IMG/VR virus record: IMGVR_UViG_3300047383_000458
Coordinates: 1-22,148 of that record
Direction: 5' to 3' (one strand)
Source of the DNA: a virus
Length of the DNA: 22,148 nucleotides
Shown: positions 5,506 through 16,779 of the stretch, piece after piece
Numbering within the stretch: position 1 is the first letter of the stretch
How the letters are laid out: each line of letters begins with the position of its first letter
Notes under the pieces: generated by a model
Databases searched by the model: none
Told to the model about the DNA's origin: nothing
Seen by the model: the letters and a program-made list of their open reading frames with translations, nothing else
Position numbers and translations under genes: made by a program

Positions 5506-6339
5506 TTATTCAGTACAGCTAATTTTAACAATGCCTTCGTCATCAATGGCAACTGAGCCAGCTGAGAACATTGAACTTACAAGGAACGATGTTTTCTCTG
5601 GAATGTAGTTTACCTCTGATTTCTGAGACATACTTTCCGCATAACCCATGCTGTCCTGATGCCAGGCGAAGCAAGTCCGGGTTGATGGTTTAGGAACGCC
5701 GCCTTCATCACGATCACCCATTGTGATAATGTTGAAGCCCATGAATGAATTGATTTCACCGCGAACCAAAGCTTTTACTGTTGCGAAGTCAGCTGAAGTT
5801 ACTTCAGTCTCACCAAGCAATGCGTCAAGCTGCGAAGAGTGCATTAACAAATGACGCCCTTCAGATGGTACGTTTTTATCATTCATCGCCTTAGCAGCCG
5901 CACGAAGCTTCTCGATGTTCATGTTAGTGCCAGATCCACCCACCGTTGTAGCAACGGTTGAAGGAGAAGATGCGGCATCAAGTGCATCAATGCAAAGCTG
6001 ATCCATACGGCGAGCGATCGCTTTAGAAACAACTTGCACCAATTCACGGCGCTCATCGAAATTAACGTGCGATTGATGGAAAATATCGCTGTACTCAGCT
6101 GCGATATAATCTGACATCGTGGCAGTAACCTGGCTATAGGTTACGTTCAGCGGAGTTACGTCAGTTTGCGGTACGCGAACTGTTGCAACGCCTTTGCCAA
6201 TTTTTGGGAATTTTACAGTATTCCCCTGCACACCGCTCCGGGTACGCATTGTTCCGCGAAGCAGTGCTTCGCCTTGATATGCCTGTTTAACCTCTTGATC
6301 GAAGAGTGTTACAAAGGCCGAAGTGATATTCTGCGCCAT
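5506..6339 (-). CDS. major capsid protein (HK97 fold, podovirus type)
   Basis: This 277-residue protein starts MAQNITSAFVTLFDQEVKQA and continues with a Gly/Val-rich segment in which GNTVKFPKIG is followed by a short beta stretch (VATVRVPQTD at about 51-60). A helical spine containing FDERRELVQVVSKAIARRMD (about residues 93-112) comes next. The beta-rich C-terminal part includes FNIITMGDRDEGGVP (about 198-212). That layout is typical of HK97-fold capsid proteins of T7-like phages. It is shorter than T7 gp10A (345 aa) and shows no sign of a frameshifted long form. A good Shine-Dalgarno (AGGAGG, 6347-6352 on the minus strand) precedes the ATG. The gene follows scaffold and connector, and a 176-bp structured leader with a possible promoter lies upstream, which suits a highly expressed gene. 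Confidence 0.85.
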   Translation of the reverse strand: MAQNITSAFVTLFDQEVKQAYQGEALLRGTMRTRSGVQGNTVKFPKIGKGVATVRVPQTDVTPLNVTYSQVTATMSDYIAAEYSDIFHQSHVNFDERRELVQVVSKAIARRMDQLCIDALDAASSPSTVATTVGGSGTNMNIEKLRAAAKAMNDKNVPSEGRHLLMHSSQLDALLGETEVTSADFATVKALVRGEINSFMGFNIITMGDRDEGGVPKPSTRTCFAWHQDSMGYAESMSQKSEVNYIPEKTSFLVSSMFSAGSVAIDDEGIVKISCTE

Positions 6340-12930: not shown

Positions 12931-12956
12931 TTAAGTTTATTATTGAGCGTTATCAA
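12928..12956 (-). promoter_or_regulatory. sigma70-like promoter for the late operon
   Basis: On the minus strand TTGATA (12956-12951) is followed by exactly 17 bp and TAACAT (12933-12928). It overlaps the stop of the initiator gene and fires toward the SSB-tailed gene and the terminase genes, so it is the natural start point for leftward late transcription. The -35 box matches 5 of 6 and the -10 box 4 of 6. Spacing is ideal and the surroundings are AT-rich. Confidence 0.5.
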
Positions 12957-13801
12957 AGCCTTAACCCTTTTGCTATACCTATGATTGTATTGTCCACCCG
13001 TTTATTGGCTGATTTGCCCAGGCTTTTGCTCACCGGGATCTGAAAGTAGCCGATGCCCCTGGCCATATCGCGGTGCTTCGAGCGGCAATACTCTGCGTGT
13101 TGCTTCAGTATCTGGCCCCAGTCCTCCTGCTTCAGACCGTCTTGTATCCATTTCTTCATCGTATCAATGTCTCGATCATTGAGAACTCTCGGAGTTCCGT
13201 AAGCTTCTGCAACTCTCAAAAACATTACACAATTCTTTCTAGCCTCTTCTATTATATTACTATTACTATCTGTTATATGGTCTGGTATGTGTAACCTCTG
13301 GGCGTTACATGTGGTGTAACCTCCAGGTGTTACATGTTCGTCCTTAGATGTGTAACCTCTAGGTGTTACACCTTTCTGATCCTGGTTAGAGTTATCCACA
13401 GCCTTTGAGGTTGAGTGTTCTAATTCTCTTTCCCGTTCTGCGAGTGAGATTTGTTCAGCTGCGTTTAGGTTTGCTCTGGCTTCATCTTCATCTGTGATGT
13501 CATCGTAGATTACTTTCCAGGTGCGTGTAGTTTGTCCTTTGTACTGAGGTCTACCGTATGTGATGTATCCCATATCCTTGAGGCGTTTCAGCTGTCTGTT
13601 GATAGCTGGTCTTGATACGCCGAGATCTTTGGCGAGCCTGGCATTGCTGACGAATGTTCTGCCTATTTCATCGCAGTAAGAGCAGAGCAGCGCCAGGACT
13701 GTGAACGCGCTGGTTCCGTGTAGCTCTTTATCCATCACTGCCTTGAAGGGAATGATGCTGAACTTTCTCAGGTCTTTGCTTCGGATGGTGGGTGGCCGCA
13801 T
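12953..13801 (-). CDS. winged-helix replication initiator-like protein (lambda O type organisation)
   Basis: The start chosen is the ATG at 13801, which overlaps the RusA stop as TAATG. This gives 282 residues, while a TTG at 13810 would add three. Residues about 25-98 form a winged helix: HGTSAFTVLALLCSYCDEIG, then TFVSNARLAKDLGVSRPAIN (helix-turn-helix) and RQLKRLKDMGYITYG. A low-complexity linker (about 100-185) carries the repeated peptides VTPRGYT and VTPGGYT and hosts the iterons. The C-terminus (about 190-282) is helical, with WIQDGLKQEDWGQILKQHAE. Phage initiators such as lambda O combine an N-terminal winged helix that binds iterons, a linker overlapping the origin, and a C-terminal domain that loads host helicase. 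The family assignment is by architecture, not by a diagnostic motif. Confidence 0.7.
   Translation of the reverse strand: MRPPTIRSKDLRKFSIIPFKAVMDKELHGTSAFTVLALLCSYCDEIGRTFVSNARLAKDLGVSRPAINRQLKRLKDMGYITYGRPQYKGQTTRTWKVIYDDITDEDEARANLNAAEQISLAERERELEHSTSKAVDNSNQDQKGVTPRGYTSKDEHVTPGGYTTCNAQRLHIPDHITDSNSNIIEEARKNCVMFLRVAEAYGTPRVLNDRDIDTMKKWIQDGLKQEDWGQILKQHAEYCRSKHRDMARGIGYFQIPVSKSLGKSANKRVDNTIIGIAKGLRL
13290..13370. repeat. three 20-bp palindromic iterons
   Basis: Copies are at 13290-13309, 13315-13334 and 13351-13370, with consensus TGTAACCTCYRGGYGTTACA. All three have perfect TGTAAC/GTTACA arms and differ only in the central eight bases. Starts are 25 and 36 bp apart. Copies 2 and 3 encode HVTPGGYT and GVTPRGYT, but copy 1 is read in another frame (CNAQRLH), so the repeat is conserved as DNA and not as protein. 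These are probable binding sites for the initiator dimer. Confidence 0.85.
13392..13400 (+). promoter_or_regulatory. consensus DnaA box
   Basis: TTATCCACA on the plus strand is a perfect match to the high-affinity DnaA box. It lies 21 bp from the nearest iteron. Alone it could be chance; beside iterons and an AT-rich region it supports an origin that recruits host DnaA. Confidence 0.65.
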
Positions 13802-14211
13802 TAATCCCAATCCACTTCTATTAAAATCATGGGTTCACCGTACCGCTTGGAAACCTTTAGCTCATACACCTGTTTGTCATCTTCAAAGCAAACGCCATTT
13901 AAGGCGTCCAGAGCGATCTTTGCCACGTTATCGATATCAGGTAGCCCAGGATAGACTTCCCCTGCTGTAGCAGCCTCTCTGCGCTTCTTAGACCATGATT
14001 TAGGTATCTGGAACTGTGCCAGGATAGCAACCCGGCAAGGTTGGGTGATTGGATCCATAGATCGGAGCATCATCCAGTTGGATGCTTGTGCTGCTAGCTT
14101 GTGTTCATAGCGCCTGGTTTTTTCCGGGGTGTAGGTGTGTCCTGTCCTGGTGAACCTGGGGCGTCCTTTGCCGACCGGCTGGCCGCTAAGATAAACTGAG
14201 ATCTTACTCAT
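13801..14211 (-). CDS. rusA: RusA-type Holliday junction resolvase
   Basis: This 136-residue protein carries the full RusA pattern. The N-terminal strand ends in GQPVGKGRPRFTRTGHTYTP (10-29), followed by KTRRYEHKL, then IPKSWSKKRR (69-78). The catalytic block is PDIDNVAKIALDALNG (91-106) with Asp92 and Asp94, then FEDDKQVYELKVSKRYG (109-125) with Asp111 and Asp112. RusA cleaves four-way junctions formed by replication or recombination, and in phages also removes branches before packaging. E. coli RusA is 120 aa. The gene sits between the RHH regulator (8-bp overlap) and the initiator gene (TAATG), so all three are probably cotranscribed. Confidence 0.93.
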   Translation of the reverse strand: MSKISVYLSGQPVGKGRPRFTRTGHTYTPEKTRRYEHKLAAQASNWMMLRSMDPITQPCRVAILAQFQIPKSWSKKRREAATAGEVYPGLPDIDNVAKIALDALNGVCFEDDKQVYELKVSKRYGEPMILIEVDWD

Positions 14212-14474: not shown

Positions 14475-14505
14475 GATATCTCTTGACCGTAATAACGATA
14501 TCTCT
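14475..14505 (+). promoter_or_regulatory. tandem operator GATATCTCT x2
   Basis: GATATCTCT occurs at 14475-14483 and 14497-14505, exactly 22 bp apart, about two helical turns, so both lie on the same DNA face. The last base of each copy is the first base of the -35 and -10 hexamers respectively. A bound dimer pair would block RNA polymerase. Arc/CopG-type proteins bind such tandem sites, and the neighbouring gene encodes one. A further direct repeat TTTTTTACAG (14466-14475 and 14526-14535) is also present. Confidence 0.65.
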
Positions 14506-14510
14506 ATATT
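14483..14510 (+). promoter_or_regulatory. sigma70 promoter of the rightward early operon
   Basis: TTGACC (14483-14488), a 16-bp spacer and TATATT (14505-14510) give a near-consensus promoter. Transcription would begin around 14517, ahead of a strong ribosome site AGGAGGA (14534-14540) and the ATG at 14547. This is the best promoter in the window and points to early expression by host RNA polymerase. A leftward promoter for the RHH gene is not clear. Confidence 0.7.
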
Positions 14511-14546: not shown

Positions 14547-14765
14547 ATGTACAAGGTTGGTCAAAAGGTTATCGGTTATTGGGGTGCGATGCATCCTTAC
14601 AGCTACGGCGAGATTGCCGAGTGGAACCCTGAGCAGTCAATGAAGTTTGTAGTTCAGTGGGATGACGGGAGCAAGTTTCACGGTCGGTGCAGCGACATAC
14701 ATTACGGCAACGTTCAAAGCGCTGGCATTGGGGTTTACTTTGCAGAAAATGAGGAGGCGGCATAA
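14547..14765 (+). CDS. early protein of unknown function, 72 residues
   Basis: First gene of the rightward operon. The ATG at 14547 is preferred over an upstream TTG because AGGAGGA lies 6 bp before it. The protein starts MYKVGQKVIGYWGAMHPYSY and has GEIAEWNPEQSMKFVVQWDD (21-40) followed by GSKFHGRCSDIHYG. The pattern of VGQKV-G, G-I--WN, and VQWDDG is like a small SH3/Tudor-type barrel of short strands with aromatic residues. No named family is recognised. Position directly behind the regulated early promoter suggests a host-takeover or anti-defence role, which is inference. Its stop overlaps the next start (TAATG). Confidence 0.7.
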   Translation: MYKVGQKVIGYWGAMHPYSYGEIAEWNPEQSMKFVVQWDDGSKFHGRCSDIHYGNVQSAGIGVYFAENEEAA

Positions 14766-15259
14766 TGGAATTTGCATTGCCTAAAGACGCGTTTCGGGGT
14801 GGCCACTGCGGCGTTCAAGCCGTTGCGGTTGCTGCGGGCAAGAGCTTGGAAGAGTGCTTCAATCTGTTTCGGAAGCATTGCGATCGGGTTAAGCGCAAGC
14901 GGCGGTGGTCTGGTGGTACTCACTACTGGGAACGGGAAAAGGTTATGGATGCGATCGGCATTCAGTACGAGGTTCTGCCCCAGAGCCACACCGAGGGCAT
15001 GACCATGCAGCGGTTCATCAAAGACGTTGCCAACCCCAATCATGTTTACATGGTTACTACTACCCGGCACGTTCAGTTGATCCGGGGCAATCAAGTTTTA
15101 GACCAGGGCGGCATCAAAGACATTGCCGATCACTGGGGCAAGCGGAAGCGGATCAGCCAGCCTGTGATGCGGATCCTTGCAGCGGAGGTTGCACAAGCCT
15201 TCGACATCGCCGAGGCACAGACCTTCGGCTTACCTTTGTTCGATAATCAAGGAGATTAA
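14765..15259 (+). CDS. C39/papain-like cysteine protease-fold protein
   Basis: This 164-residue protein has RGGHCGVQAVAVAAGKSLEE (11-30), in which Cys15 heads a helix, the typical nucleophile setting of papain-fold enzymes (-CG--A---). TTTRHVQLIRGNQVLDQGG (98-116) then places His102 at a strand start and Asp113 about ten residues later, giving a plausible Cys-His-Asp triad. An Arg/Lys patch (RVKRKRR, 41-47) lies between. The C-terminus (about 120-164) is helical. Phages carry similar small proteins with unknown targets. It could be a protease, a deamidase or an inactive relative. The gene overlaps its upstream neighbour (TAATG). Twelve of 13 Arg codons are CGG, unlike the structural genes. 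Confidence 0.62.
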   Translation: MEFALPKDAFRGGHCGVQAVAVAAGKSLEECFNLFRKHCDRVKRKRRWSGGTHYWEREKVMDAIGIQYEVLPQSHTEGMTMQRFIKDVANPNHVYMVTTTRHVQLIRGNQVLDQGGIKDIADHWGKRKRISQPVMRILAAEVAQAFDIAEAQTFGLPLFDNQGD

Positions 15260-15262
15260 TCA

Positions 15263-15739
15263 ATGAGTGCTTATTTATGTAATCCTGAACACATCGGCGT
15301 TCTTGCCAATGCAATGAGCCGCAATGGTGTCAGCCTTCGGGGCTGCTACAACAGCCCTGGGGGCATGGCCAAGGCATTAGCCAAAGCAAACTGGATCAGC
15401 ATCGAAGAGCGGTATGGCGCCAAAGATGCGGTTTGGATGAACAACGAGCGGCCCTTCGAGGTTTACGAGGATGAGTGTGCTGCCCAGGCAAGTCGGCCAG
15501 ACATGGACTTGAAGCCTATCGATTTCGTTAAGATGGCTCATGGCTTTGCCTACCAAGCGTGTGAGGCACGGCAGTTTCGGGATGCCGACTACGAGAGCGA
15601 GTATGTTGGCCAGTATCATATAGACAGCTTCATCGATTGCATGTTGCGCAAGATGCCTGGCTACGACGATGCGCCATGGAGCTACGAGCGGAAGGCAGAT
15701 GCGCCCGAAGTTATCGACATTTTTGCTGAGTTAGTTTGA
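15263..15739 (+). CDS. unknown protein with a CDY/PGYDDAPW-type C-terminus
   Basis: This 158-residue protein starts MSAYLCNPEHIGVLANAMSR. The C-terminal third reads FVKMAHGFAYQACEARQFRD (about 90-109), then FIDCMLRKMPGYDDAPWSYE (about 125-144). From memory, a widespread uncharacterised family begins MSAY-V--- and ends with a C-DYQ-CE segment followed by ALPGYDDAPWG, so this seems a divergent member. Function is unknown. The gene follows with a 3-bp gap after the protease-like gene and an AAGGAG ribosome site. Seven of nine Arg codons are CGG, as in its neighbours. Confidence 0.6.
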   Translation: MSAYLCNPEHIGVLANAMSRNGVSLRGCYNSPGGMAKALAKANWISIEERYGAKDAVWMNNERPFEVYEDECAAQASRPDMDLKPIDFVKMAHGFAYQACEARQFRDADYESEYVGQYHIDSFIDCMLRKMPGYDDAPWSYERKADAPEVIDIFAELV

Positions 15740-15750
15740 GAAAAAACACA

Positions 15751-15933
15751 ATGGAATTTATAGTTAAAAAGATCTGTGAGAGTGGTGTTCGGGTTGTCGA
15801 GATCTTCGACAGCTACGAAGCTGCACTTGCCAAAGCAGCTGAACTTAAAGAGGCACAAGAGTTCAGCGAATGCTTCATCGACATTCAAGCGCCTCAAGGT
15901 TTTAAGGTTGCTGGCATGGGAGGTTACCAATGA
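15751..15933 (+). CDS. small unknown protein, 60 residues
   Basis: Start at ATG 15751 (a TTG at 15736 overlapping the previous stop would add five residues). The protein reads MEFIVKKICESGVRVVEIFD, then SYEAALAKAAELKEAQEFSE (21-40) and CFIDIQAPQGFKVAGMGGYQ. Alternating strand, helix, strand gives a beta-alpha-beta plan like small ferredoxin-like or Arc-type folds. No family is recognised. The stop overlaps the next start (ATGA at 15930), so the two are coupled. The single Arg uses CGG. Confidence 0.6.
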   Translation: MEFIVKKICESGVRVVEIFDSYEAALAKAAELKEAQEFSECFIDIQAPQGFKVAGMGGYQ

Positions 15934-16142
15934 AACTTTATTGTCGGTCAGGTGGCGAAACCAATGTTAAGGTTGTTCGGGAAACTGCCAAGGCTATCCT
16001 GGTCAAAGGTAATTGCAGCGAGGCCTGGTTTCCAAAGGCTGCAATAAATGAAAACGGAGAGGTTGCCGATTGGTTTATCGGATCTCTTGTGCATAACTTT
16101 TTATGGCAAGCACCATACAAGGAAGGATCAGCAAATGAATAG
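15930..16142 (+). CDS. small phage protein with AWFPKAAI motif, 70 residues
   Basis: The protein starts MKLYCRSGGETNVKVVRETA, then KAILVKGNCSEAWFPKAAIN (21-40) and ENGEVADWFIGSLVHNFLW. The sequence of strand KVV-ET-KAILV, then EAW-PK--I, then an acidic turn and a helix matches a short phage module I have seen repeatedly in early regions, without known role. The start overlaps the preceding stop (ATGA), and the last 8 bp overlap the small membrane protein gene. Both Arg codons are CGG. Confidence 0.62.
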   Translation: MKLYCRSGGETNVKVVRETAKAILVKGNCSEAWFPKAAINENGEVADWFIGSLVHNFLWQAPYKEGSANE

Positions 16143-16272
16143 CCTGGATAAACTTCGCGCCATGCTGCGCGATATGGAAGATAGCTTGGGCGTCTGGGGT
16201 GATATCCTGGGAGCCCTGTCTTTGTTTGGCATTCTGGTTGTCGGTTTGTTTTTCGCCGGTGTTTACCAATGA
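16135..16272 (+). CDS. single-pass membrane protein, 45 residues
   Basis: This is a 45-codon frame with ribosome site AAGGAAGGA upstream. It starts MNSLDKLRAMLRDMEDSLGV as an amphipathic helix, followed by a hydrophobic stretch LGALSLFGILVVGLFFAGVY (about 25-44) long enough for one membrane span. The N-terminal half is charged and probably cytoplasmic. The role is unknown; superinfection exclusion is one possibility for an early one-pass peptide, but nothing here proves it. It overlaps the zinc mini-protein gene (ATGA at 16269). Confidence 0.58.
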   Translation: MNSLDKLRAMLRDMEDSLGVWGDILGALSLFGILVVGLFFAGVYQ

Positions 16273-16448
16273 AATACATTTACGATGCCAGCGATTTTTG
16301 CAGATCGTGCAAAGGCAAGGGATATTTCAGCGATAAAGATCCGCGTACTGGCATCACAGTCAGCGACGATTGCTTGCACTGCAACGGCACTGGCTTCAAA
16401 GCGATTGTAATCTTAGAGGAGGAGGAAAAAAATGCTCGGAAGCATTAG
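16269..16448 (+). CDS. DnaJ-type zinc-binding mini-protein, 59 residues
   Basis: This is a 59-codon frame with ATGA coupling to the preceding gene. CRSCKGKGYF (11-20) and CLHCNGTGF (35-43) form a pair of CxxCxGxG motifs, the signature of one half of the DnaJ cysteine-rich domain, which binds one zinc ion. The 14 residues between them are polar. There is no J-domain. The C-terminus is acidic (ILEEEEKNARKH). Such proteins may bind host chaperones or nucleic acid. It overlaps the winged-helix gene by 17 bp, and that gene's ribosome site GAGGAGGA is built from its Glu codons. Confidence 0.68.
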   Translation: MKYIYDASDFCRSCKGKGYFSDKDPRTGITVSDDCLHCNGTGFKAIVILEEEEKNARKH

Positions 16449-16779
16449 AAATATGTTGGCTAAAATCAACATAAAAAAAATGCACCACCGCAATGGCCCA
16501 GATACTGAGCGAGCGGCAGCGCATAAAGTTGCCCGGAGTTTAAAAGGTAGGCGAAGGGAGGTCTTGCTATCTCTATACGGGATGAAGGAGCCCGCCACAG
16601 GGGAAGAGATAAGCCTCGCCGCCGGGCTTAATATTCTCAGTGTTAGGCCCAGGTTGACTGAATTGCAAGAAATGCTTTTGATTGAGGATACACAAATCAG
16701 AAGGAAAAACAGATTTGGAAATTTAGAAATCGTTTGGTCACTTACAGAGGAAGGAAAGAAAATTGCAAATCAACTATGA
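16432..16779 (+). CDS. winged-helix DNA-binding protein, 115 residues
   Basis: The N-terminal 35 residues are basic (MLGSIRNMLAKINIKKMHHR). The rest is a winged helix: RREVLLSLYGMKEPATGEEI (about 41-60), SLAAGLNILSVRPRLTELQE (61-80, recognition helix region), then MLLIEDTQIRRKNRFGNLEI (wing) and VWSLTEEGKKIANQL. The closing LT--GK--A is typical of MarR/ArsR-like wings followed by a terminal helix. It is probably a transcription regulator of the early or late switch, or a replication accessory. A strong GAGGAGG site precedes the ATG, and the end overlaps the Gp157-like gene by 17 bp. Confidence 0.65.
   Translation: MLGSIRNMLAKINIKKMHHRNGPDTERAAAHKVARSLKGRRREVLLSLYGMKEPATGEEISLAAGLNILSVRPRLTELQEMLLIEDTQIRRKNRFGNLEIVWSLTEEGKKIANQL

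Follow-up and report, generated by a model that had tools for sequence, protein, structure and literature searches.

Five neighbouring rightward genes (14547-16142) of a marine virus encode arginine almost exclusively by CGG, in contrast to the other genes on the same stretch of DNA. The chance seems to us somewhat better than even that these genes are the first part of an immediate-early operon whose CGG regime is held by translation selection via isoacceptors other than those used by the late genes. The sequence is IMG/VR record IMGVR_UViG_3300047383_000458, positions 1-22,148, and this whole stretch of 22,148 nt is referred to as the window. The virus appears to be a marine podophage and a distant relative of the OM43 phage MEP301. 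A preliminary description of the region, made from the sequence, had proposed either recent joint acquisition of the five genes or selection on the translation of takeover proteins. Our data support the latter as the best reading, as far as early genes are concerned.

Codons were tallied in all genes of the window. The five genes, located at 14547-14765, 14765-15259, 15263-15739, 15751-15933 and 15930-16142, contain 26 Arg codons, of which 23 are CGG and 3 are CGC, with CGT, CGA, AGA and AGG absent. This recount agrees exactly with the number given previously. CGG makes up 47 of 318 Arg codons in the leftward genes (Fisher p=7e-15 against the five-gene run) and 4 of 43 in the later rightward genes (p=3e-11). 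Hence the whole-genome count suggested as a check, which was run within the window, detected no preference for CGG in other genes. The reported dominance of AGC for Ser and GTT for Val was also recovered, since AGC and AGT together account for 20 of 25 Ser codons in the five genes versus 118 of 328 (p=2e-5), and GTT for 32 of 38 Val codons versus 151 of 305 (p=3e-5). When every run of up to eight neighbouring genes was scanned for each of the six Arg codons, the top result was exactly the five-gene run (p=2e-15), the best value among 300 control shuffles being 1.5e-5. The signal derives mostly from gene 2 (12 of 13 Arg codons) and gene 3 (7 of 9). Genes 1, 4 and 5 possess just 1, 1 and 2 Arg codons, every one of them CGG.

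The codon switch that had been noticed near 16140 is real. Gene 6 (16135-16272, plus strand, 45 aa), the first past the boundary, carries CGC Arg codons as read from the sequence, and its homologues in relatives use CGC at 2 of 2 Arg codons. The assignment of CGC and CGT to both the capsid and the later early genes held for the major capsid protein gene (5506-6339, minus strand), which has CGC 5, CGT 6 and CGG 2 (CGC/CGT 11 of 13) and mainly TCN codons for Ser, but not for the later early genes, whose Arg codons are mixed (CGC 14, AGA 12, AGG 7, CGA 6). Early and late genes of one genome thus differ in synonymous codons, both in the window count of CGG and in the pooled comparison of early with capsid genes described below.

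The leftward genes comprise a structural set (for tail tube, capsid, connector and terminase), followed by an O/DnaD-like replication initiation gene (12953-13810, minus strand) and RusA. Preference of the O/DnaD-like gene for AGA and AGG constitutes a third Arg pattern in this genome and is significant in several relatives too. The rightward early operon is preceded by a sigma70-type promoter, TTGACC-N16-TATATT, at 14483-14510 on the plus strand (10 of 12 consensus matches), and a TTGACN hexamer is found approximately 60-67 nt upstream of the first early gene in the window and in most relatives inspected. Because of this promoter and its position, the operon is probably immediate-early and transcribed by the host RNA polymerase. 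Downstream of the boundary, gene 8 (16432-16779, plus strand) belongs to the phrog_1123 family, has mixed Arg codons, and serves as a conserved marker of this position in relatives.

Gene 1 (72 aa) shows weak Tudor-like similarity (Pfam Tudor_5, E=4e-4, below the cut-off). Gene 3 (158 aa, Ser AGY 9 of 9) encodes an all-helical protein of unknown function, for which a fold search gave no structural match. Genes 4 (60 aa, with homologues in relatives) and 5 (70 aa, weakly similar to phrog_8389), the latter closing the CGG run, are likewise of unknown function. The suggestion that a protease-like fold is present among the five proteins found support in gene 2 (164 aa, phrog_3754, Val GTT 12 of 13), for which no Pfam match was obtained. 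Its predicted structure (pLDDT 83) matched the ComA peptidase domain 3k8u in Foldseek (probability 0.90, E=0.03) and a phage C39 entry (probability 1.0), and residues C15, H102 and D113 are invariant. The model therefore combines a predicted papain-like fold with the active-site Cys and His, and the gene 2 product looks like a C39-type cysteine protease. It resembles the peptidase domains of ComA and PCAT1 in predicted fold and in the invariant Cys, His and Asp, but differs from these proteins in having no transporter domain. The anti-host or anti-defence roles also suggested for the five genes received no support from any of the results.

The shift acts on codons and not on a DNA motif, as a comparison of reading frames shows: the enrichment of CGG is 3.7-fold in frame 0 and below 2-fold in frame 2, and in frame 1 there is a decrease. 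A constraint on the DNA or RNA itself, e.g. a motif, skew, restriction avoidance or overlapping frames, with CGG as a by-product, might be suspected from the positive GC skew of the early operon and from some short words, such as CAAG, that deviate from synonymous shuffles. However, TC-words outside Ser codons are not generally avoided, the overlapping frame is served equally by CGC and CGG, and C-ending two-fold codons are also raised, contrary to a simple skew of G over C. This makes such a constraint an improbable explanation, and a DNA motif or skew as the main cause was rejected by the frame analysis.

The search for homologues yielded 29 virus loci for gene 2 and 14 for gene 3. CGG is retained across gene 2 homologues of 67-98% identity. 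At 67-68% identity, it occupies 12 of 12, 9 of 9, 9 of 9 and 8 of 9 Arg positions, including 3 of 3 and 2 of 2 Arg residues exclusive to these relatives, while agreement at the four-fold sites of Val, Ala, Gly, Pro and Thr in the same comparison exceeds the expectation from codon use only modestly. With the homologue of locus L118 (37% identity), gene 2 shares only 3 Arg sites. At the unshared sites CGG was used in 8 of 9 cases in the window and 6 of 6 in L118, i.e. 14 of 15 in total. Judging from these alignments, frozen ancestry cannot explain CGG in gene 2, because Arg residues that are unshared at 37% identity are also encoded by CGG. In other lineages gene 2 takes other Arg sets, namely CGC/CGT in L012, L020 and L028 and AGA/AGG in L016. 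On the gene 2 tree, 5 switches among the three codon classes are required, few of which are forced by well-supported branches.

The gene 2 protein is 65% identical in phages whose portal is only 26% identical, and gene 2 is, on this comparison of identities, mobile between phage groups. Among the carriers of a gene 2 homologue are phages whose structural genes are distantly related (L012, L020, L028 and L040). One of these loci, L040, belongs to the cultured Roseobacter phage CRP-902, whose homologue is 53% identical. In this phage (L040:4725-7417) the small genes around the homologue use CGC at 27 of 42 Arg codons, and the adjacent genes on the minus strand use AGA at 34 of 55.

This mobility of gene 2, together with the local CGG bias and its sharp edge, is what speaks for the five genes having been acquired recently and jointly, by horizontal transfer, from a CGG-rich donor. 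Nevertheless, such an acquisition is very improbable. All five genes together were found in no relative, where many separate combinations exist instead, so that the search for the complete set in other phages, proposed earlier as a check, speaks against recent joint acquisition. Neither plasmids nor the bacterial-genome contigs scanned provided a match to gene 2, and hence the genes were not traced as a set to a donor or to other genomes. Furthermore, CGG survives in homologues that have diverged strongly, to as little as 37% identity, and early genes from unrelated families in other genomes show it as well. On these grounds, the claim of recent joint acquisition was rejected.

The distribution of the bias among relatives was surveyed in about 65 related marine virus contigs, starting from 80 loci retrieved with the neighbouring RusA protein as the scan query. 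Counts for relatives are approximate, because genes were called mechanically and several loci share contigs with one another. The operon between the conserved sigma70-type promoter and the phrog_1123 gene often keeps to a single set of Arg codons within a genome. CGG accounts for 22 of 22 Arg codons in the early operon of L118, 9 of 9 in L062, 18 of 19 in L044 and 15 of 18 in L116, whereas L076 uses AGA, AGG or CGA at 17 of 17 and L054 and L055 mainly use CGC/CGT. In several contigs, the Arg bias is weak or absent. Ser AGY and Leu TTR codons are raised in most early operons, whichever Arg set is used. Within CGG genomes, different gene families (9, 16, 22, 48 and 79) are alike in their CGG bias. 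Within a genome, the rate at which early genes from different families coincide in Arg class is.467, compared to.329 +/-.014 after permutation, and beyond the boundary this coincidence is absent (.402 versus.394 permuted). As far as can be judged from these codon counts, the Arg bias therefore belongs to operon position and genome rather than to the gene family, because diverged homologues and unrelated early families keep it. In phage T7 such a shift between early and late genes is absent.

Eight phages of the CGG class were pooled for a comparison of early, capsid and other genes. The CGG share of Arg codons amounts to.92 in early,.09 in capsid and.16 in other genes. The corresponding values are.86,.18 and.38 for the AGY share of Ser and.64,.26 and.37 for the TTR share of Leu. 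Thus, in the CGG group early and capsid genes seem to draw on different isoacceptors for each of the three amino acids with six codons. Phage tRNA genes were not found in the 29 loci.

Under the favoured reading, translation selection on an immediate-early operon, this operon would often have a synonymous regime of its own in this phage group, with one Arg set per genome (CGG in the window) and a preference for Ser AGY and Leu TTR, and the regime would end ahead of the conserved phrog_1123 gene. Early genes would be read by the Arg tRNA with anticodon CCG and the Ser GCU tRNA of the host, and late capsid genes by its ICG Arg tRNA and the UCN Ser tRNAs. Maintenance by translation selection is suggested because the regime seems to follow operon and genome rather than gene family and to have outlasted the saturation of silent sites. 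The selective agent would then be tRNA supply or charging, and the choice of isoacceptor may be due to host-specific supply, to low demand from host mRNAs or to robustness against the shortage of an amino acid. Counter-evidence comes from the CGC/CGT lineages (gene 2 in L012, L020 and L028, and the operons of L054 and L055), which indicate that no single isoacceptor is favoured, and from L060, whose CGA is normally read by the ICG tRNA along with CGC and CGT. Neither the CGC/CGT lineages nor the CGA use of L060 fit a single isoacceptor rule. In the operon upstream of RusA (+352 to +2500 nt), L060 uses almost only CGA, AGA and AGG; its capsid gene, 91% identical to that of the window, uses CGT/CGC.

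A more specific and rather doubtful proposal is that tRNAs are partitioned in time, the early genes employing the Arg CCG or an AGR-reading tRNA, the Ser GCU tRNA and a TTR-reading Leu tRNA as opposed to the capsid set, because the tRNA pool usable at entry differs from the later one. Starved oceanic cells or host defences that cleave tRNAs would be examples of such a situation. Codon choice could then act as a timing or escape device that does not require any phage tRNA.

Alternatively, early genes may be tuned to the preferred codons of each host, in which case the hosts of the CGG group should prefer CGG, AGC and TTG. The lineage-specific choice of the Arg set would agree with this, and so does CGC at 27 of 42 Arg codons around the gene 2 homologue of CRP-902, which fits a Rhodobacteraceae host, these bacteria preferring CGC. 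Nevertheless, we consider host tuning to be rather unlikely, since in the CGG phages themselves the capsid genes rely on CGC/CGT and TCN codons, and one host optimum cannot cover both. Weaker evidence comes from sampled proteobacteria. In 20 alphaproteobacterial ribosomal-protein loci that had been picked for one CGG in S12, CGG reached at most 38% of Arg codons, and the S12 codon pattern in 289 Alphaproteobacteria revealed no CGG-dominant lineage. CGG at both Arg codons of the S12 motif occurred in 0 of 398 Pseudomonadota genomes, this being a strict pattern without a genome-wide positive control. Portal alignment to genome contigs returned 7 scattered MAGs of mostly unrelated taxa, which were unusable as hosts. 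At one locus, L125, a portal gene of 55% identity sits within a Hyphomicrobiales MAG, on a contig of 186 kb, and this may be a relative in prophage form.

Differences in codon use between early and late genes were described for 7 of 14 phages and were put down partly to tRNA adaptation (Mioduser, Goz and Tuller 2017, PMC5683454). In those phages, as in ours, the choice among synonymous codons differs between the early and the late genes of a single phage. However, what was reported there is that whole codon vectors separate statistically, whereas in our case nearly all Arg codons of a short operon are of one kind, the Ser and Leu boxes are shifted as well, the edge is sharp, and the regime is kept across genomes and families with a lineage-specific choice. 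Early/late codon differences are hence already known, and what we describe is a sharper variant of them, bound to an operon and specific to the lineage. In the open-licence literature, no report was found of Arg codon or isoacceptor use in phage early genes that resembles this operon-bound, genome-specific box switch.

Robustness under amino-acid shortage is a possible basis of the codon choice, drawn from analogy. Elf et al. are said to have described in 2003 that codon robustness under amino-acid starvation is isoacceptor-specific. In Bacillus subtilis under the serine shortage that induces biofilm formation, TCN codons lower translation and AGC/AGT do not (eLife 2013, PMC3862929). The early operons likewise choose AGY for Ser, although the B. 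subtilis system concerns biofilm control and the likeness may be confined to codon choice. Parallels to the robust Ser codons may exist among those of Arg and Leu.

If the regime is set by isoacceptors, the codons of early operons would reveal, for ocean bacteria that have not been cultured, the charged tRNA pool that a phage meets on entering its host. Immediate-early operons could then also be recognised, and phages grouped by host or host state, from sequence only. The lineage switch between CGG, AGR/CGA and CGC/CGT, with AGY mostly kept, makes the question of early and late codons directly testable.

The head-tail connector and the capsid of the window are 59% and 63% identical to those of MEP301, the structural gene order is alike, and both contain RusA. 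MEP301 differs in its GC content of 40%, compared to about 46-50% in the group of the window, and in the absence of a CGG-pure early cassette. It lacks an RNA polymerase and reportedly relies on that of its host, and sharing of at least 40% of genes with MEP301 defines the MEP301-type group (PMC8024684). Finally, 16269-16448 of the window encodes a small CxxC...CxxC protein resembling the motifs of the DnaJ zinc finger and of antitermination protein Q.
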